Shown here: in pieces, positions 26,980 to 56,900 of the stretch
Position numbering within the stretch: position 1 is the stretch's first letter
Layout: every line of letters begins with the position of its first letter
From: Gavia stellata
Taxonomy: Eukaryota > Chordata > Aves > Gaviiformes > Gaviidae
NCBI RefSeq assembly: GCF_030936135.1
Contig: NC_082596.1
Location: forward strand, 310,001 to 374,000
Direction of reading: 5' to 3'
Length of the DNA stretch: 64,000 bases
Notes under the pieces: model-generated
Databases searched by the model: none
Told to the model about the DNA's origin: nothing
The model's input: only the letters and a program-made list of their open reading frames with translations
Translations under genes and position numbers: made by a program

Positions 26980-28610
26980 GGGGGCACCCTGCACGGGGGC
27001 ACAGGGTGCCTACGGCACGGGGGGCACCCCACGTGGGGGACACAGGGTGCACGGGGCACAAGCAGTACAGGGGGGCACGCGGCACAGGCTGCGTGCAGCA
27101 CCGGGGGCACGTGGTGCATGCGGCACGGGGCACACCCCATATGGGGGGCATACGGCATGGGGGGCATGGGGCACAGGTGGCATCGGGCGCACCTTGCATG
27201 GGGGGCGCAGGGTGCGTGCATCGCAGTGCGCGGGGCACAAGCGGTGTGGGGGGCACATGGGGGGCAGGCAGCGCATGGGGCATGGGGTGTGTGCAGCACC
27301 GGGCGCACGCGGCATGGGGGGCACAGGGTGCATGTGGCAGGGGGTGCACCCCACGTGGGGGGCACGGGGGGCACAGGGTGCATGTGGCAGGGGGTGCACC
27401 CCACGTGGGGGGGCACGGGGGGCACAGGGTGCCTATGGCACGGGGCGGCACACCGCAGGGGGTGCAGAAGGCATGGGGTGCGCCCTGCATGGGGGGCACC
27501 GGGCACAGGGTGCATGTTGCATGGGGTGCTCACTGCAGGGGCGGGTACAGGGCGCACGCAGCATGGGGTGCAGGTGAGATGGGGTGCACAGGACAGGGGG
27601 TGCAGGGGGTGCATGCAGCACGGGGTGCAGGTGAGATGGGGTGCACGCAGCACGGGGTGCAGGGGCTGCATGCAGCACGGGGCGCAGGTGAGATGGGGTG
27701 CACAGGACAAGGGGTGCAGGAGGTGCATGCAGCACGGGGTGCAGGTGACATAGGGTGCACGCAGCACAGGGTGCAGGGGATGCACGCAGCATGGGGTGCA
27801 GGTGAGATGGGGTGCACAGGACATGGGGTGCATGCAGCACAGGGCGCAGGTGAGATGGGGTGCACAGGACAGGGGTGCATGGGGTGCATGCAGCATGGGG
27901 TGCAGGTGAAATGGGGTGCACGCAGCACAGGGTGCAGGGGGTGCATGCAGCACGGGGCGCAGGTGAAATGGGGTGCACAGGACAGGGGTGCAGGGGGTGC
28001 ATGCAGCACGGGGCGCAGGTGAGATGGGGTGCACAGGACAGGGGGTGCAGGGGGTGCATGCAGCATGGGGCGCAGGTGAGATGGGGTGCACAGGACAGGG
28101 GGTGCAGGGGGTGCATGCAGCACGGGGTGCATGGGGTGCATGCAGCATGGGGTGCAGGTGAGGTGGGGTGCACGCAGCACGGGGTGCAGGGGGTGCATGC
28201 AGCATGGGGCGCAGGTGAGATGGGGTGCACAGGACAGGGGGTGCATGCAGCACGGGGAGCAGGTGAGATGGGGTGCACAGGACAGGGGGTGCATGCAGCA
28301 CAGGGCGCAGGTAAGATGGGGTGCACAGGACAGGGGTGCATGGGGTGCATGCAGCACGGGGTGCAGGTGAGATGGGGTGCACAGGACAGGGGTGCAGGGG
28401 GTGCATGCAGCACGGGGTGCAGGTGAGGTGGGGTGCATGCAGCACGGGGTGCAGGGGCTGCACGCAGCACGGGCTGCACACTGCACGGGGCAGACGCAGC
28501 AGGGGCTGCACAGGTGCATGCGGCACGGGGTGCATGCGGCACGGGCTGCACCCCGCAGGGGGCAGACGCAGCGGGGGTGCGGGGGGGACCCCGCCGGCCC
28601 CCCCCGGTTA
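26980..28610. repeat. Minisatellite with embedded 5' splice-site-like sequences
   Basis: The left part (26980-27530) is a loose ggcacggggggcacagggtg repeat. From about 27540 to 28450 the unit settles to about 55 bp (ggggtgcatgcagcacgggg followed by tgcaggtgagatggggtgca) with about 16 copies. Each ordered unit carries caggtgaga or a close variant on the + strand. It lies between GRINA and PLEC, in the predicted first intron of GRINA (antisense to it). Confidence 0.92.
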
Positions 28611-29404: not shown

Positions 29405-29604
29405 NNNNNNNNNNNNNNNNNNNNNNNNNNNNNNNNNNNNNNNNNNNNNNNNNNNNNNNNNNNNNNNNNNNNNNNNNNNNNNNNNNNNNNNNNNNNNNNN
29501 NNNNNNNNNNNNNNNNNNNNNNNNNNNNNNNNNNNNNNNNNNNNNNNNNNNNNNNNNNNNNNNNNNNNNNNNNNNNNNNNNNNNNNNNNNNNNNNNNNNN
29601 NNNN
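29405..29604. other. Assembly gap (200 N)
   Basis: Run of N between two very GC-rich flanks. The true missing length is unknown; 200 is likely to be a placeholder. Further PLEC first exons could be missing here. Confidence 0.99.
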
Positions 29605-30643: not shown

Positions 30644-30659
30644 ATGAAGGTCGTGCCGG
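30644..30659 (+). CDS. PLEC: Plectin alternative first exon 1d (muscle type)
   Basis: Coding part ATG AAG GTC GTG CCG G, then donor gtaggt at 30660. It encodes MKVVP plus the first base of the shared Asp codon, so joined to exon 2 it reads [16 protein letters not shown]. The mammalian 1d isoform starts MKIVPDERDR. In mammals 1d directs plectin to Z-disks in striated muscle. The 5' UTR is CpG-rich and preceded by the AT-rich element at 30493. Confidence 0.85.
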
Positions 30660-30950: not shown

Positions 30951-31056
30951 ATGGAGGACGCCGGTTCCCTCTTCCCCTCGCTGGTGGCCGTGGGACACGC
31001 AGCATCCCTCGCCCTGGTCTGGTTCTGGCGGCGGCGTGCCGAACCGGGGGGGGCAG
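30951..31056 (+). CDS. PLEC: Plectin alternative first exon 1b (mitochondrial type)
   Basis: Encodes MEDAGSLFPSLVAVGHAASL, then ALVWFWRRRAEPGGA and one extra G (phase 1), with donor gtgagt at 31057. The mammalian 1b exon begins MEPSGSLFPSLVVVGHVVTL and ends in a basic WRR segment; it targets plectin to the outer mitochondrial membrane. The hydrophobic stretch followed by WRRR, the signature of that signal anchor, is kept. Confidence 0.92.
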
Positions 31057-40870: not shown

Positions 40871-40982
40871 ATGTCCCGGCAGTGGCTGCGCAGCCAGGAG
40901 GAGGGTCTGTGTGCGGGGCAGAGGACGGGCTCGGAGGACAACCTCTACCTGGCCGTGCTGAGGGCCTCCGAGGGCAAGAAAG
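40871..40982 (+). CDS. PLEC: Plectin alternative first exon 1a (epithelial type)
   Basis: The start ATG is in a perfect Kozak context (gccaccatg). It encodes MSRQWLRSQEEGLCAGQRTG followed by SEDNLYLAVLRASEGKK and one G, with donor gtagcg at 40983. The mammalian 1a isoform has the same SEDNLYLAVLRASEGKK end; it is the hemidesmosomal isoform of basal keratinocytes and binds integrin beta-4. The mammalian RTSSED phosphorylation segment reads RTGSED here: one of the two serines is replaced by glycine, while the other keeps Arg at -3. This is the best reference start for the gene in this window. Confidence 0.97.
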
Positions 40983-43633: not shown

Positions 43634-46600
43634 ATGAGCGAGACCGGGTCCAGAAGAAAACCTTCACCAAATGGGTCAACAAGCACCTCATCAAGGTACG
43701 GGCACGCGCCGCCTCCTGCAGACCCTGACTGTCCCGGCGGAAAGTCCCGGGGAGGCTGTGCCGGCTGTGCCGCTGGCAGCGCCCAGCTCCTGGCACTGGA
43801 GCATCCCCAGCCGCATCCCCACCATGGCAGCACAGCAGAGCACCACAGGATGTGGGCGGCGGAGGCCCCCGGCAGCGCTGTGCCGGCACAGCCTCTCCGG
43901 CTGCCTGTACACCAGTGCTCCTGCCGCCACGGCAGCAGGCAGGCAGCGGTCGAGGCCGCTCGGCTGCCTCCGTGGGGAGGCTCTGCTCCGGCCTGCAGCG
44001 GGGCTAGCGGCAGCACCGGGGCCCTCGCGGGCAGGAGCTGCTTGCCCTGCCTCCCCGCTTCCCCTGCCCGGCTGTGCCGGGGGGCTGTGCCGTCCCGTGG
44101 CTGTGCCGGGCGTTGGGCCAGGCCGGGAGTTGCCAGCCGCCCCCTCCCACGCACGCCGGCAAGCGCTGTGCCAGCTGCAGGAGGGGATGGTGCTCTGGCC
44201 CCGGGCACGAAGGGACCTTTCCTGGGCTTTGATGCAGAGTTTGGCATCTCTGCCGGGCTCCCTGCCTGCGCCCCCTCTGCCCCGCACCGGGGTGCCCACG
44301 CCCTTCCTGCCTGTCCCGGGGCGGCCATGCCCACGGTGCTGCCTGTGCTCGGCAGCGCCTGCACCGCGTCCTCCCGTCCTGCCCCGCGCTCCTGTCTCCG
44401 GTGGTGCCTCTCTCCCCACTCCTTCCCTGGGCCGCCCAGCTGAACCCCGCCAGGGCCCCGCCAGCGTGCCGGTGCCTGTCCCGGCCGCACGGCGGGCAGA
44501 GCCCCACGTCAGCGCCTGGCACGCGCCGAGACGTCTCCGCAGCCCCCGCGCGCGGACGTGTCCCCGCATGCTGGGCACCCACCCCCGCGGCATCCATGCT
44601 GCGGCAGTGGTGCTGGCGCAGGGTGCCGCTGCCCGGGGCGGGTCCTGGCCGCCCCCTGCCCACCCCGGGGCTGTCTCCTCTCCGCTGCCTCTCCTAACCT
44701 CTCTCTCTTCTCTCTGCCTCTCCCCGCGCAGCACTGGCGAGCAGAGGTAGGTCTCTCCCTCTCCGGCTGCCCCTGCCATGCTCTTTCTCTTCTCACACCG
44801 ACCCCTCCCCGTGCCGGGGCCGGACCCCGCGGCTGCCGGCATGGTGGGCAGCGGGTCTGACCCCTGAGGCTGCCGGCATGGTGGGCAGCGCGTCCCTGTG
44901 CATGGCAGAGCGACGCCGGATCCTGCCCGACTGTTGCTCCGCGGGGCACGGGGGGGGGGGATCCGCTGGTGTGTGCTGGTGGGACACGGGGTTGGGGACA
45001 CCGGGCTGTGCTTGGGGACGTGTGTGAGCACCCGCTGCACAGGGGGACGACGACGCTGGGCTCCCACCCTGGCTGCCCCATTTCGGTGCCAGCTGGCATG
45101 GGGCCAGGGGGGCAGGAGAGCGGGGGGTTCTGGGGCTCTGCAGGGCTCGGCTGCCCCCCGGCACCCCCATAACGCCATCCCCGTCCCCACAGGCGCAGCG
45201 TCACGTCAACGACCTCTACGAGGACCTGCGGGATGGACACAATCTCATCTCGCTGCTGGAGGTGCTCTCGGGGGACACACTGGTAGGTGTCGCGCCGACC
45301 CTGCTGCCGCACCGCTGCCGCCCCGCTCCCCCGCGCCGGCTCCGCGTGCCGGGACCCTCCGGCTGCCGGCCGTCCCATCCTCTGCTTCCTGCATCTGCCT
45401 CCCACCCCTCTCCCGCTTGGCCTCTCCCCCGGCTTTGGTCCCATCCCAGAGAGCTGCCCGGCACCCTGCCGGAGCGCCCCGAGCCCCGCTGGCACAGCCG
45501 CCCCCCTCCGTCCCGCAGCCCCTCCGGCCCCACCGCGGCTTCTAACGCCCGGACGTCTCTTTGCTTTGGTGAACTCTCTGCTTCTCTGCGCTGGGCTCCT
45601 GTTGGCGGGTCTGCCCTGACCGTCCCCCTCCGGCCTTTGCCTCCTTCCTCTCTTTGCACTGCTCTGGCCGGGCAGCCGAGGGAGCGCGACGTGATCAGGA
45701 ACTTGCGGTTGGTGAGTGGTTCTGCCGTTTGCTCTCCGCATGGCCCCGCATGGTGAGCGCCCGCCGCGGCGACCGGGAGATGCTCCACCACCGGCGCGGC
45801 TGCACCGTTCCGTCCCGGTGCGGGTGCGGAGGAGAGGTGTCACCGCGTGCTGTGCCGGGGGAGGCGCGTAGGCACCCCAGGGTGCTCTGGCAGCGGGGTC
45901 AGCCGGGGCGCCCGCAGCTGAGCGCCGGCTAGGGCGGGTTTTGCTGGGCTGGGCCTCGCCTGCAGTGGCAAGATAGGAGCGCGGCATGGCGGGGAGCCGT
46001 GCCGCAGGGCTAGAACTCCCACGGGGCCGTAGCTGGGCTGTGGCTTCTGGCACTGCGGCGAGATGTGCCGCCCGGCTCCCTGCTCCTCGGGGCTGCCGGA
46101 GGTCCCGGGACACTCGGCAAGGGGGATGGCGCTGCGGCCGCTGACCCCCCTGGGTCTGCCAGGGCCAGACCCTGCCCTGACCGGCTGGGTTTCCCTCGTG
46201 CCCCATAGCCATGGGGCGTGGGGCGGAAGAGACCCTGGGCCATCGCTGCACGGCATGTGGGGGGCTCAGCGGCTCCCCGGCCCCTCCTGCAGCCAGGTTG
46301 GGCGCAGCCGCTGCCGGTGGAGGTCGGGCCTCGCCGCGGGGCCGGTGGGTGTGGGGGGATCTGTCCGGGCAGGAGCGGCCCCGCGGGGGCTGCCCAGGGG
46401 ACCCCAGCCGGGGACCCGCAGGGGTGGGGAGGTTCCTGCTGGGGGGGTCACCCAGCATGGTGACACCTGGTCTCTGCCGCCGGGCAAAACCGGAGCGTGC
46501 TGGGGAGCCGTGTGCTGCCTCCAGCATGGCCGCGAGGAGCTGGCGAGGGCAGGGACAGCGGTGCCGCCGGGATGCCGCAGGCAGGGGCAGAGCAGGGCTG

Positions 46601-49600
46601 GGCTGCGCGGTGTGGCCAGCTGTGCCTGCGCCGCGGGGCCGGCGCTGCTGCGTGGCGGAGGAAGCGCAGGTGCAGGGTCTGGCGGCGAGGCTGGCCGTGC
46701 TCGCCATTGTTCGGGCGGGCAGCGCTTCCTGCCCGCAGCCCCGTGGGACGGGCAGAGGATTTCCTGGCGGGTCCGCGCTGCCCGCTCCCTTCTGCGCGGG
46801 CGCTGCCTGGACAGGGGCGTGGGGCGCGGTGGCACCTTGGCCGGGACCGTCTCGGCGGGGGGGGGGCACAGGCCCCCATCCTGGCACCAGCTCCCTGCGG
46901 CGATGGGGTGCCCGGTGCCTGCATTCCTCCTGCCTGTCCCGCCTGCGCAGGCAGCTGCCGCATTTCGGGCAGGGGCTGGTGCTCGGCGCGGTGGCCTGGG
47001 GAGGGGCTGGGGCCCCGGGACGGATGCCGTGGGGAGCAGGGCTGCCGCACAGGGGTGCAGCAGGCACCGCTCTCGCACCGCGCCTGGCGCTTGGCTTCCC
47101 TTGGCGTGGCAGCCGGTGGCCCCGGCGCTGCAGGGCGGCGTGGCCCTGCCGGGGCCGGGGGCAGTTTGGGCTAGGCTGGCCCCGGCCGATGGCTTTGCGG
47201 GGGGAGAGGCGGGGGCTGTCCCCTTCCTGGCGGGAGCAAAGTGCGGAGGGCGTGTGACATCGGCATGTGCAGTGCCGGGAGGGGCTGGGCTGGCGCACGG
47301 GGTGGGCCGTGGCGCTCGGTGCCGAGCATCGCTCGAGTGCGCGGGTGAGCCAGGGGGTGGCGGGGCCGGGTCCCGGCGGGGCTGTGCCGGGTGGGGGCCG
47401 CGGCTCATCGCCCCTCGCTCTCCCCGCAGCCCCGGGAGAAGGGCAGGATGCGCTTCCACAAGCTGCAGAACGTGCAGATCGCTCTCAACTACCTGAAGCA
47501 TCGCCAGGTGAGGAGGGGTCGCGGGGCTGCCGGGCTGGCGGGACCCCCCGGGGACCCCCGGGGCTGGGGCACGCTCTCCACCCTCCCTGCAGCACCGTGT
47601 GCCTTGGCCTCACAGGTGAAGCTGGTCAACATCCGCAACGATGACATTGCCGATGGCAACCCCAAGCTGACGCTGGGGCTCATCTGGACCATCATCCTCC
47701 ACTTCCAGGTGAGCCCAGAGCCCCGGGGCCCGGCACAGGCACACGCCGTGCCGCGGCCTGGGGGGAATGTGGCGGTGGCGGGGCTGGGGGCGGTGGTGGC
47801 GGTGCCGGCAGGCCGGGGCTCTGCAGCGCTCCTGGTGCCGGTTTGGTCCCCGTGTCGGGCAGGAGCGGAGCAGTGGTGGGGCCGGGGCATCACCGGCAGA
47901 GGCTGCGGTGGAGAAGGTGGCAGCCGCCACGGAGCGAGCGCGCCCGTGCACGGTGGGAGCCGGCGGATGGGCCGGTGTAACTCCCCTGTCCCGGCAGATC
48001 TCGGACATCCAGGTGACGGGGCAGTCGGAGGACATGACGGCCAAGGAGAAGCTGCTGCTCTGGTCCCAGCGGATGGTGGAGGACTACCAGGGCCTGCGCT
48101 GCGACAACTTCACCACCAGCTGGCGGGACGGGCGCCTCTTCAACGCCATCATCCACCGGCACAAGTAGGTAGAGCGGAGCCGGGTCTGCCCCTCGACACC
48201 GCCTGTGGGTGCAGCGCGCCGGGCTGGCCGGGGCGGGCAGTGCTGTACCCCGCTGCGGGCACGGAGCGGGCGGCAGGGACCCGGCACCCCCAGCCCCGTC
48301 CCCGTGGCACCAAGCCTCCCTTGGCACAACCGTCCCTGGCTCAGGCTCCTGGGGGAGCCGGGGCTGCCGGCCCCCGTGGTGGGGAGAGCAGCCCCGGGGG
48401 CTGCGGAGGACCCGGCTCTGGTGCTGGCAGGATTTGGCCCCTTGCAGCAGCCGGCGGTGCAGGGTGATGCCATGCGTGGGGCAGGCGCGTGCTCACTGGG
48501 ACCAGCCGCCGGTGGGGCCAGCCGCGCTGATCCCGTTTTGGGGTGACGCAGGCACGTGCTCCTGACAAATCCCAGCCCATCGGCCTGTGCTGGCAGCACC
48601 GTGGCGGCACGGGGAGCCGCGGCGGCTTAGCCACCTTCCCACGCTCCCACCCGACCTGCCGACCCGTTGCCTGCGTGGGCAGGCGGGTGCTGACCCCCCC
48701 AGGCGGTGGGCACTGTGCCTTCCGCAGCGTGCCGGGGCGCAGGCGGGCAGGCCCCCGCGGGCTCTGCCAGGTCTGCTGCGCGCCTTTGGGGAGCGCAAGT
48801 ACGTGCAGGCGTGCCGCGCCCGTGCAGGGTGGGAGGAGGCACCCGTGCCGTGCCGCGCCTCGCCGTGCCGCACTCTGCACCAAGTCGCCACCGCGGCAGG
48901 AGCTCACCAACCGCTGCACCGAGCTCGGTCCCACCATGGAGCGGAGCGGGCGGCATCGGGCCAGGAAGCAGCCGCGGCAGCGTGGCGCAGGGAGCTTGGC
49001 GCGGGCTCTGCTGGGGGCGGAGGATGGGGTGGTGATGGTCTGCGAAGACGTTCCTGAGTGCCCGGTGGCCCCCGGCATCAGCGGCTCCTTCTACTCCGTC
49101 CAGCACAGCCTGCGCCTCAGGGAGCTGTAGGCACCGGGCTGGGACCCCCCGCCGGGCTGGGGGGCTGGGGCTGCTGCCTGCCCCACGGGGACATGGGGCA
49201 CTGCCCGCTCCCGGGGTCGGCACAGGGACACGGGGGGCACTGCCTGCTCCGGGGTCTGTCCGTGCTCAGGGCCGTCGGGGCGTCCCTGGCTCCCGGCGCC
49301 CGTGGCCGGGTGTGGGGGTCTCGCCAGCCACCGGTGCCCCTGGAGCACGGTGTGGGTGTGCAGGGCGTGGGGTGGCTCGGCAGAGGTGCAGGCAGCGCAG
49401 GCAGCCCCTGGGGGGGTTGGACGCGCCGTCTCCGGGGTTTCTCCAAACAGCCGGCGCCCACGCCTGCTGGAAACCTGCGCCGTGGGGCAGGGCAGGCGGA
49501 GGGTGCTGCCTGCGGTCCCCGGCCCCACCGTCTGCCTGGCTCGGCGGGAGAGCGGCCGCCGGCGCGGCCCCTGCCCCCAGCTGCTGCGGGGTCCCTGGCG

Positions 49601-50935: not shown

Positions 50936-53900
50936 ATCCTCTGGCGCCAGTTCCTGAAGTTCAAGGAGACGGAGCTCCCGGCCAAGGAGGCCGACAAGAA
51001 CCGCTCCAAGGCCATCTTCCAGTCCCTGGAGGTGAGCGGTACCTGCCGCCGGCCGTGCCTGGGGGGCCGGGGTGCTGGGGTCCCAAGGGGCTGGGGGTCC
51101 TGGGGGTCCCAGGGGTCCGGGGTCCTGGGCACTGGGGGGTACTGGGGAGCTGGGGGTCCCGCAGCAGTCCTTGGCACGCCCCGCCGTCTCCGTGCCGGGG
51201 TGGAGGCTGTCCCGCGCCTCTCCCATCTCACGGCTCCGGCGTGGAGCAGCCGAGACGTGGCACCCGCGGCCGGGGTCCCCCCCGCCCGCCCCTGCCCGGG
51301 GGTGCCGGGGCCGCTGGTCTGACGAGCCCGGGGGGGCGCAGGGCGCGGTGCAGTCCGGGCAGCTGAAGGTGCCCCCCGGGTACCACCCGCTGGACGTGGA
51401 GAAGGAATGGGGGAAGCTGCACGTGGCCGTGCTGGAGCGGGAGAAGCTGCTGCGGGCCGAGTTCGAGAGGCGAGTTCGGGGGGGGGGTGCGGCTGGGGGG
51501 GGCTGGGGGGGGCTGGAGAGGGGGGCTGGGGGGGGCTGGAGGGGGGGGGATTGGGGGGGCTGAAGAGGGGGGCTGGGGGGGGTGAAGGGGGCTGGAAGGG
51601 GGGACTGGGGGGGGCTGGGGGGGGCTGGCACCCGCTTCCCCGTCCGCGCAGCCGAGCCGCTGGGCCGGGCCGGGTGGGGTGGGGTGTCCCGGCCCCCCCG
51701 TCCCGCGGTGCGTGAGTCACCGACCGCCTCCGGGAAGCCAGCGCGGCCGCCGGCCCCGGGCGCGGTTCGGCACGGCACGGCACGGCACGGCTCGGGTCGG
51801 CTCGGCACGGCACGGCACGGCACGGCACGGCTCGGCACGTCGGGGCAGCCAGGAGCCGGTGGCCGTCCCGCGGCCCGGGGTCCGCTGTGCCTCCGGCTCC
51901 GCGCCCCGTCCCAGCCCGGCAGCGCGGGCGGGAGAGGGCGGGGCGTGGCGGGGCGTGGCCGGGCGGGGCGTGGCCGGGCGGGGCGTGGCGGGGCGTGGCG
52001 TGGCGTGGCCGGGCGGGGCGGGGCGAGCGGCGGTGGGACGGGGCCGGGGAGCGGGACCGGGAGCAGGGGCGGGATCCGGGTCTGCGGGTGGGGGTCCGAG
52101 CTGGGCCGGCACAGGGTGTCTGCGGGGCGGGCGGGAATGGGGTGGGTGCTGTGCGGGAATGGGATGGGTGCTGTGCGGGAATGGGGTGGGTGCTGTGCGG
52201 GAATGGGGTGGGTGCTGTGCGGGAATGGGATGGGTGCTGTGCAGGAATGGGGTGGGTGCTGTGCGGGAATGGGATGGGTGCTGTGCGGGAATGGGGTGGG
52301 TGCTGTGTGGGAATGGGATGGGTGCTGTGCGGGAATGGGGTCGGTGCTGTGCGGGAATGGGATCGGTGCTGTGCAGAGAATGGGATGGGTGCTGTGCGGG
52401 AATGGGGTCGGTGCTGTGTGGGAATGGGATGGGTGCTGTGCAGGGAATGAGATGGGTGCTGTGCGGGAATGGGGTCGGTGCTGTGTGGGAATGGGATGGG
52501 TGCTGTGCAGGGAATGAGATGGGTGCTGTGCGGGAATGGGGTCGGTGCTGTGTGGGAATGGGATCGGTGCTGTGCAGGGAATGGGATGGGTGCTGTGCGG
52601 GAATGGAGTCGGTGCTGTGCGGGAATGGAGTCGGTGCTGTGTGGGAATGGGGTCGGTGCTGTGTGGGAATGGGATCGGTGCTGTGCGGGAATGGGATTGG
52701 TGCTGTGCAGGGAATGGGGTCGGTACTGTGCGGGAATGGGGTCCATGCTGTGTGGGAATGGGATCGGTGCTGTGCAGGAATGGGGTCCATGCTGTGTGGG
52801 AATGGGATGGGTGCTGTGCGGGAATGGGATGGGTGCTGTGCGGGAATGGGGTCCATGCTGTGTGGGAATGGGATCGGTGCTGTGCAGGGAATGGGATCAG
52901 TGCTGTGCGGGAATGGGGCCGGTGCTGTGCGGGAATGGGATCAGTGCTGTGCGGGAATGGGAGGGTCCATGCTGCATGGGAATAGGATCGGTGCTGTGCG
53001 GGTTGGGAGCTGGGCTGTGCAGGGACAGGATCGGTGCTGTGCGGGAATGGGGTCCGTGCTGTGCAGGAATGGGATCGGTGCTATGCGGGGAATGGGATCG
53101 GTGCTGTGCGGGGTGCGAGCTGGGCTGTGCAAGGACAGGATCTGTGCTGTGTGGGGACAGGATCTGTGCTGTGAAGGGAATGGGATCGGTGCTGTGCAGG
53201 GACAGGATCCATGCTGTGTGGGGTGGGATCCGTGCTGTGTGGGGCAGGAGCTGGGCTGTGCGGGGACAGGATCCGTGCTGTGTGGAGCGGGATCCGTGCT
53301 GTGCAGGGAATGGGATTTGTGCTGTGCAGGGACGGGATCCGTGCTGCGTGATGGCGGGATCCGTGCTGTGCAGGGACTGGGATCCATGCTGTTCAGGGGA
53401 CAGGATCCATGCTGTGCAGGGACAGGATCCATGCTGTTCAGGGGACGGGATCCATGCTGTGCAGGGACAGGATCCATGCTGTGAGGGACGGGATCCTTGC
53501 TGCGTGGGGCTTGATCCGTGCTGTGCAGGGACGGGATCCGTGCTGCATGATGGCGGGATGATGCATGTTGTGCAGGGACAGGATCCATGCTGTGCAGGGA
53601 CAGGATCCATGCCATGCATGGACAGGATCGGTGCCCCATGGGGCAGGATCTGTGCCGTGCATGGATGGGGTCGGTGCCTGCGTGCCGACCCCAGCCCTGC
53701 CGTCTCCCTGCGCAGGCTGGAGCGGCTGCAGCGCATCGTCAGCAAGCTGCAGATGGAGTCGGGGCTCTGCGAGGAGCAGCTCAACCAGGCTGACACCCTG
53801 CTCCAGTCGGTGAGCGGCTGCTCCGGGGCCACGGTGGGGGGGACCGGTGGGGCGCGGGGCCCTGACCGTGCCCCTAACCGTGCTCTTGACTGTCCTCCGT

Positions 53901-56900
53901 CCCCAGGATGTGCGGCTGCTGAACGCGGGGAAGCCGCCTCAGAAGGCGGCCGAGATCGAGCGGGACCTGGACAAGGCAGACGCCATGATCCGGCTGCTCT
54001 TCAACGACGTGCAGACCCTCAAGGATGGCCGGCACCCGCAGGGGGAGCAGATGTACCGCAGGTACGGCCGCGCTGGGGGCCGGTGCCACCGTGGCATGCC
54101 CCGCGCAGGGCACCCTGGCGCTCGCCTGGCTGTGGCAGCAGCCCACGTCCTGTGCCCACCATGTCCCCCACGCCTGCCACATCTCCTGCGCTCCCCAAGC
54201 CCCCCATGCCCACCATGTCCCCCATGCTCCCCAAGCCTCCCGTGCCCCCCATGTCCCCCAAGCGCCCCACGCTCTCCGTGCCCCCTGTGCCAACGCACCG
54301 CCTGCCCGCAGGGTGTACCGCCTGCACGAGCGCCTGGTGGCCATCCGCACAGAGTACAACCTGCGGCTCAAGTCGGGCGCGCCGGCGGCGGCGGTGACAG
54401 TGCCACTGGGGCAGCGGCCGCGGCAGGAGCTGGACGAGGCCACGCTGCGGTACCTGCAGGACCTGCTGGCCTGGGTGGAGGAGAACCAGCGGCGGCTGGA
54501 GGCGGCCGAGTGGGGCGTGGACCTGCCCACCGTGGAGTCCCACCTGGGCAGCCACCGTGGCCTCCACCACTCCATCGAGGAGTTCCGCACCAAGATCGAG
54601 CGGGCGCGGGCCGACGAGGTGAGCCGCCCACTGTGGAGTCCCCCGGGGCTGCCCCCACTCCTGCTCCTGGGGGTCCCCGAGGCCCCTGGGGCTGCCCCCA
54701 CCCCTGCTCCTTGGGGTCCCCGAGGCACGCAGGGCTGTCCCTGCCCTGTTCCCGGGGGTCTCCGAGGTGCCGTGGCTGCACGCAGGCTGGCGGGGGGCTC
54801 TGGGAAGAGCAACCCAGCCCAGGCCCCCTCGGCCCGCCCCGGCTCCAGCTCTGCCCCACCGGAGCCCACTCTGGAGCCCCTCTGTGCCCTGGGACGTCCT
54901 GGACGGTTAGGGGTCACGGTGCCCCAAGGGCACCCTGCTGCCCCCCCCCGCACCTCATGCCCCAGGGCTGCCCCCCAACTGCCTGCTGCCCTCCCCTGTG
55001 CCCCACCTTCAGCCCCCTGGCGCTCCGGGCGGGGGGATCGGCAATGGGAGCGGGCACTGCCCCCGGTGCAGAGGGGCTGCCGGGGCTGGCGCTGGTCCGT
55101 CCTGCACCCTGCGGAGACCCGCACGGCTCTGGGCGCTGCCACGGTGCTCCCTGGTGTTAGCATCCCTCCCCAGACCCTGCTGTCGGGAGACCGGGGTGCT
55201 CTGGGGAGGCCGGGGAGCTGCTGTCCCCAGGGGGTGCGTCAGGAGGTCCCTGCGCTCACGGCATGTCTCCCCCAGGCACAGCTCTCCCCCGGCCCCCGAA
55301 ATGCCTACCGGGAGTGCCTGGGCAAGCTGGACCTGCAGTACGCCAAGCTGCTGGTGAGGATCCGGGCTGAGGTGGGGGGTGACGGGGGGGCACGGGACAG
55401 GAGACCTGCAGGGGCAAGGATGTATGACACTGCGGAGATGTGCAGGGAGGAGGATGCAGGACATGGGGGAGATGTGCAGGGAGGAGGATGCAGGACATGG
55501 GGGAGATGTGCAGGGAGGAGGATGCAGGACATGGGGGAGATGTGCAGGGAGGAGGATGCAGGACATGGGGGAGATGTGCAGGGAGGAGGATGCAGGACAT
55601 GGGGGAGATGTGCAGGGAGGAGGATGCAGGACACGGGGGAGATGTGCGGGGATGAGGATGCAGGACATGGGGGGCGATGTGCAGGGAGATGTGCAGGGAA
55701 GAGGATGCAGGACACGGGGGAGATGTGCGGGGAGGAGGATGCAGGACATGGGGGAGATGTGCAGGGAGGAGGATGCAGGACATGGGGGAGACAGCGGGGA
55801 GGAGGATGCAGGACATGGGGGAGATGTGCAGGGAGGAGGATGCAGGACACGGGGGAGATGTGCGGGGATGAGGATGCAGGACATGGGGGGCGATGTGCAG
55901 GGAGATGTGCAGGGAAGAGGATGCAGGACACGGGGGAGATGTGCGGGGAGGAGGATGCAGGACATGGGGGAGATGTGCAGGGAGGAGGATGCAGGACATG
56001 GGGGAGACAGCGGGGAGGAGGATGCAGGACATGGGGGAGATGTGCAGGGAGGAGGATGCAGGACATGGGGGAGATGTGCAGGGAGGAGGATGCAGGACAT
56101 GGGGGAGATGTGCAGGGAGGAGGATGCAGGACATGGGGGAGACAGCGGGGAGGAGGATGCAGGACATGGGGGAGATGTGCAGGGAGGAGGATGCAGGACA
56201 TGGGGGAAATGTGCGGGGAGGAGGATGCAGGACATGGGGGAGATGTGTGGAGAGGAGGATGCAGAGGAGGATGCAGGAGGATGCCTGTCCCTGTGCCTGT
56301 CCCCAGAACTCCTCCAAGTCCCGGCTACGGCACCTGGAGAGCCTCCACAGCTTCGTCAGCGCCGCCACCAAGGAGCTGATGTGGCTGAACGAGAAGGAGG
56401 AGGAGGAGGTGAACTTCGACTGGAGCGACCGCAACCCCAACATGACGGCCAAGAAGGAGAACTACTCGGTACGGAGAGAGCCCGGGACGTGCTGTCCTGC
56501 CCGCTCCCCGTCCCTGCATGCGGCTGTCCTGCCCACTTCCTGTCCCCGCATGTGGCTGTCCTGCATGGTCCCTGTCCCTCCCTGTCCCTGCACGTGGCTG
56601 TCCTCACACAGTCCCCATCCCTCTGGCCTGGCGGTGACAGATTTTTGGAGGTGCCTCCTGCACCCTGTGGCAGAGGATGCTCTTTGGCCACCCCAGCCTT
56701 GCTGTGCCGTGCCGCCCCAGCCCCGCTGTGCCGTGCTGCTTGCCGAGGCTCCAGCCCTGCTTTTATCTCCTTCTCGTGCCAGTTCTGTTCGTTATCTCTT
56801 CGCTGTCTGATCTGGGGCTGGAGTCGCTCTTCCCCTCTGGTTATCGCTATCGATTGACTGAAACCACATCTGTGCTCTGCAGCTGAGCACCCCCAGCCCC

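Follow-up and report, generated by a model that had tools for sequence, protein, structure and literature searches.

Organization of the Locus

The window analyzed here is a 64-kb stretch of DNA, and its plus strand carries part of the plectin gene. Exon 2 (43634..43695, 62 nt) encodes the start of the first calponin-homology domain (CH1); its protein matches plectin chains, and its end, which precedes exon 2-alpha, is at a codon boundary. Exon 3 (45193..45282, 90 nt), exon 4 (47430..47507, 78 nt), exon 5 (47616-47708), and exon 6 (47998-48164) follow on the same strand, and more plectin exons are located downstream of exon 6. When exons 2 to 5 together with the two inserts described below were used as a query against the PDB, 51 distinct sequences were obtained at E values up to 0.001. 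The best matches were the plectin chains 1mb8 (4.1e-65) and 1sh5 (4.4e-65), which we take to be human and mouse plectin, respectively. The exon 6 peptide was also compared with bacterial/archaeal contigs (61 pattern stretches) and with viral contigs (24 pattern stretches); none of these stretches was confirmed, a result that is uninformative on vertebrates. Two minisatellites are apparently within plectin introns: one is at 52131-53545 (22-nt units, about 64 copies) and the other at 55434-56264 (34-nt units, about 25 copies). PMC8782857, a paper on plakin genes, includes birds among the tetrapods in which it treats the PLEC-EPPK1 locus.

Upstream of exon 2, candidates for alternative first exons were found by comparison with mammalian peptides. 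The coding part of the likely first exon 1d is at 30644..30659 on the plus strand; it encodes MKVVP and ends in a phase-1 donor. The likely first exon 1b (30951-31034) is about 300 nt downstream of the 1d-like exon, and its peptide, MEDAGSLFPSLVAVGHAASLALVWFWRR, gave a 71% match over 28 residues to the mammalian one. The likely first exon 1a (40871-40982) also gave a 71% match and has a phase-1 donor; its segment DNLYLAVLRASEGKK is identical to the mammalian tail. Exons 1c, 1, 1e, and 1f gave no convincing match in the window, but these negatives are weak with the query peptides used. It should be mentioned that 1c, the neural partner in mouse, is among these exons. The assembly has a gap, a run of 200 N (29405-29604), a short distance upstream of the 1d-like and 1b-like exons, and this gap could hide a first exon.

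Two Short Exons in the Actin-Binding Domain

Exon 2-alpha (44732..44746, plus strand) is located between exons 2 and 3. It is 15 nt long, has the sequence CAC TGG CGA GCA GAG, and encodes HWRAE in phase 0, with AG immediately before it and GT immediately after it. Exon 3-alpha (45676..45711, plus strand) is located between exons 3 and 4, is 36 nt long, and encodes 12 residues, likewise in phase 0 and between AG and GT. Its 12-codon frame is open, and a stop codon is present in one of the other two frames. All four inclusion patterns of the two exons stay open; in other words, the frame is kept when they are spliced in alone or together. The first-pass annotation had placed two micro-exons at these coordinates, with these lengths, peptides, and phase and in the right introns. 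All of these features were confirmed, including the neighboring exon ends at 43695, 45193, 45282, and 47430.

According to passages of PMC7891324, PMC8464768, and PMC8391331, plectin has two optional exons: 2-alpha, which lies between exons 2 and 3 and encodes 5 residues, and 3-alpha, which lies between exons 3 and 4 and encodes 12. The earlier identification of the micro-exons as these two is supported by the agreement in place and size. For 2-alpha, a comparison of residues is also available. Both 1mb8 and 1sh5 have HWRAE at the identical position, aligned without a gap, and the residues of 2-alpha are confirmed against these two chains. The remaining three of the five plectin chains with alignments (4q58, 4q57, and 3f7p) are without HWRAE, as is expected of an optional exon. 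The residues of 3-alpha are absent from all five chains, and a literature search with fragments of its peptide gave no matching title on plectin. Exon 3-alpha agrees with its mammalian counterpart in place and length, and its 12 residues presumably resemble the mammalian ones.

Splice Sites and Alternative Readings

The splice sites were scored with matrices of textbook frequencies, rather than with a published scoring program. The donor of 2-alpha (GTAGGT) ranks first among the 62 internal GTs of intron 2, and that of 3-alpha (GTGAGT) first among the 96 internal GTs of intron 3. The acceptor of 2-alpha is second among 66 AGs in intron 2. The acceptor of 3-alpha is weak: with a score of -2.2, it is placed 24th among the 103 AGs of intron 3, and it is the weakest of ten acceptors scored, the remaining nine ranging from 3.4 to 15.5. 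The statement in the first-pass annotation that both exons have consensus splice sites is therefore correct for both donors and the 2-alpha acceptor, but overstated for the 3-alpha acceptor. Neither intron contains another stop-free candidate, 3-51 nt long and a multiple of three in length, in which both sites are as strong as those of the exon described; because both donors rank first, this comparison rests mainly on the donors.

The region upstream of 2-alpha (44694..44731, plus strand) contains a branch-point-like CTAAC at -38, a CU-rich tract with PTB-like words, and the AG, which closes a 108-nt AG-free stretch. Upstream of 3-alpha (45616..45675, plus strand), the tract near the AG is weak and a branch-point-like CTGAC is present at -60. 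This region is part of a 155-nt AG-free stretch of 70% pyrimidine, closed by the 3-alpha acceptor, with a second branch-point-like word, CTAAC, at -134. Of the 3445 AGs examined in the window, 24 have an AG-free stretch of at least 108 nt and 11 have one of at least 155 nt; the stretches of the eight ordinary exons scored are 21 to 74 nt long. A stretch longer than the exon's own precedes two AGs in intron 2 and one AG in intron 3. Branch-point-like words also precede four of the eight ordinary exons (2, 4, 5, and 7).

Short frames between AG and GT are common in GC-rich introns, and one or both micro-exons might accordingly be splice-bounded frames that arose by chance and have no function. 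For 2-alpha, this is contradicted by the presence of HWRAE in 1mb8 and 1sh5. Furthermore, HWRAE is encoded at a single place when all N-free positions on the two strands of the 64 kb are considered, and its expected number in intron 2 is 3.6e-4 from base composition and about 1e-6 when a flanking AG and GT are required. The lack of any rival short candidate with both sites as strong, judged mainly by donors, points in the same direction. A chance origin is thus extremely improbable. The weak acceptor leads to a different reading, in which 2-alpha works and 3-alpha is decaying in this genome, being spliced rarely or never. Its rank among the AGs of intron 3 and its last place among the scored acceptors agree with such decay. 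However, the phase 0 frame is open over all 12 codons, while a stop occurs in one of the two other frames; the donor is the best in the intron; and the acceptor is preceded by the long AG-free, pyrimidine-rich stretch. In addition, weak acceptors are common among regulated exons. Decay of 3-alpha seems improbable on these grounds, though not to the same degree as a chance origin.

The two segments are very probably the known plectin exons 2-alpha and 3-alpha, both intact. Both inserts and their frame-keeping arrangement occur in this genome, and gene models should thus take in the two exons. Both exons are already known from mammals, in which they modulate the binding of plectin, a cytoskeletal linker, to actin and microtubules in muscle and nerve; their presence here is expected and ordinary rather than new. 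Among the matches listed in literature searches on 2-alpha/3-alpha in chicken, birds, zebrafish, and Xenopus, no title concerned these exons outside mammals. The microexon passage found in the literature on plectin and microexons concerns DAAM1, not plectin, and PMC5979291 mentions neither 2-alpha nor 3-alpha.

Sequence Words in the Flanking Introns

The flanks were examined for PTB-like and GCATG words, which were chosen after the sequence was seen; counts were compared with those in 2000 dinucleotide shuffles of the respective intron. The 100 nt upstream of 2-alpha contain six PTB-like words, a number reached there by none of the 2000 shuffles of intron 2. Only 24 of 12,780 overlapping 100-nt windows have at least six such words, and 19 of these 24 form one cluster at 2-alpha. 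The downstream flank (44747..44846, plus strand) begins with the donor GTAGGT, is CU-rich, and contains four PTB-like words (4 of 2000 shuffles). For 3-alpha, three PTB-like words are upstream (17 of 2000 shuffles; the ordinary exon 2 also has three) and one is downstream (459 of 2000).

GCATG words, which are possible RBFOX sites, are found at 45738 and 45748 in the downstream flank of 3-alpha (45712..45752, plus strand, beginning with the donor GTGAGT). Two such words within 41 nt were reached by 17 of 2000 shuffles, and neither is part of a full TGCATG. One GCATG is in the 100 nt downstream of 2-alpha (312 of 2000 shuffles), and a TGCATG is at 44899, 153 nt downstream of this exon. At least two GCATG words are present in 564 of the 12,780 100-nt windows overall and in 42 of 841 nearby. 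This means that such a pair is not rare in the window, and the RBFOX part of the argument is weaker than the PTB part. A further minisatellite, at 27550-28478 (57-nt units, about 16 copies), contains many TGCATG words; TGCATG-rich arrays of this kind inflate the counts of RBFOX motifs in this window. UGC words of the SRRM4 type near both micro-exon acceptors were dropped as evidence, because they are also present at exons 2, 5, and 7.

The clustering of PTB-like words around 2-alpha suggests control by PTBP1 and RBFOX. Judged from sequence words, the micro-exons are rather probably under the control by these proteins that is usual for such exons. In mammals, as described in sections of PMC4317164, knockdown of Ptbp1 raises the inclusion of most responding micro-exons, and many micro-exons are enhanced by RBFOX; RBFOX can also repress them, as predicted for 111 of 521. 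The main text of PMC4317164 contains no word beginning with PLEC. In the proposed model, PTBP1 bound to the CU-rich tracts would exclude 2-alpha in most cells, and the weak acceptor would keep 3-alpha skipped in most cells. In muscle and nerve, the level of PTBP1 would fall and RBFOX proteins would act at the downstream GCAUG sites, so that both exons might be spliced in.

Similarity between 3-alpha and the Start of Exon 4

When 3-alpha was compared with all 12-residue windows of the spliced exons 2-6, the best match was the start of exon 4, with a BLOSUM62 score of 21; the next score was 10. Among 100,000 residue shuffles, a score of 21 was reached by 59 and five identities by 156. The similarity is mostly due to PRE; with PRE removed, a match at least as good is given by 7,257 of 100,000 shuffles. 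At the DNA level, 3-alpha and the initial 36 nt of exon 4 are identical at 17 of 36 positions, a value reached by 171 of 20,000 shuffles. If 3-alpha had been copied from the start of exon 4, its inclusion would repeat the L/PRE junction, and the local context would be kept. An insert that merely preserves the L/PRE junction explains the similarity equally well. The broader proposal, that an old tandem duplication of the start of exon 4 (36 nt) gave rise to 3-alpha and that this exon, with its PTB/RBFOX-like flanks, would make a conserved tissue switch of plectin from actin to microtubules, is a speculative one and seems doubtful.

Effects on the CH1 Domain and Expected Isoforms

Both inserts fall inside CH1, adding 5 and 12 residues. 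The Pfam CH score of the whole protein is 114.8 bits with no insert, 108.2 bits with 2-alpha, and 105.3 bits with both, and the domain is still recognized. The first CH stretch changes from 6-108 to 6-113 with 2-alpha and to 6-125 with both inserts.

The portions of PMC10177080 dealing with isoforms describe 2-alpha in the rodent muscle isoform 1d, which is the muscle partner of 2-alpha in mouse. Enhancement of actin binding by 2-alpha is stated in a passage of PMC8464768, a review that cites earlier work. As reported in parts of PMC7891324, a rodent nerve variant of 1c carries both 2-alpha and 3-alpha, and 52.0% of the mouse fragment P1c(2-alpha,3-alpha)-8 sediments with microtubules, as compared with 36.5% without the 1c part. 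The same parts describe the binding to microtubules as relatively weak without the inserts, 1c still binding at reduced levels. By analogy with mouse, 2-alpha would strengthen actin binding in muscle, and 2-alpha and 3-alpha combined with exon 1c would favor microtubule binding in neurons. The role of 2-alpha/3-alpha splicing in tubulin binding will probably need structural analysis to be solved, as stated in a passage of a 2021 essay (PMC8391331). An additional orthologue of 3-alpha helps in choosing residues for such testing.

Comparison with Known Systems

The actin-binding domain of MACF1 (4z6g) has a homologous CH1 region. However, this protein is a plakin paralogue, not plectin, and its match is lower (179.9 bits, as compared with 220.6 bits for 1mb8). 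The mammalian brain micro-exons under PTBP1/RBFOX control, as far as they are described in sections of PMC4317164, share with the exons described here a length of up to 51 nt, preservation of the frame, and, less clearly, a pyrimidine-rich upstream flank and GCATG downstream. The regulation proposed here differs in that it is drawn from sequence words only. With 2-alpha and 3-alpha of mammalian plectin, as presented in the available passages on those exons, the two exons agree in length (5 and 12 residues), in the introns that contain them, and in their presumed optional status.
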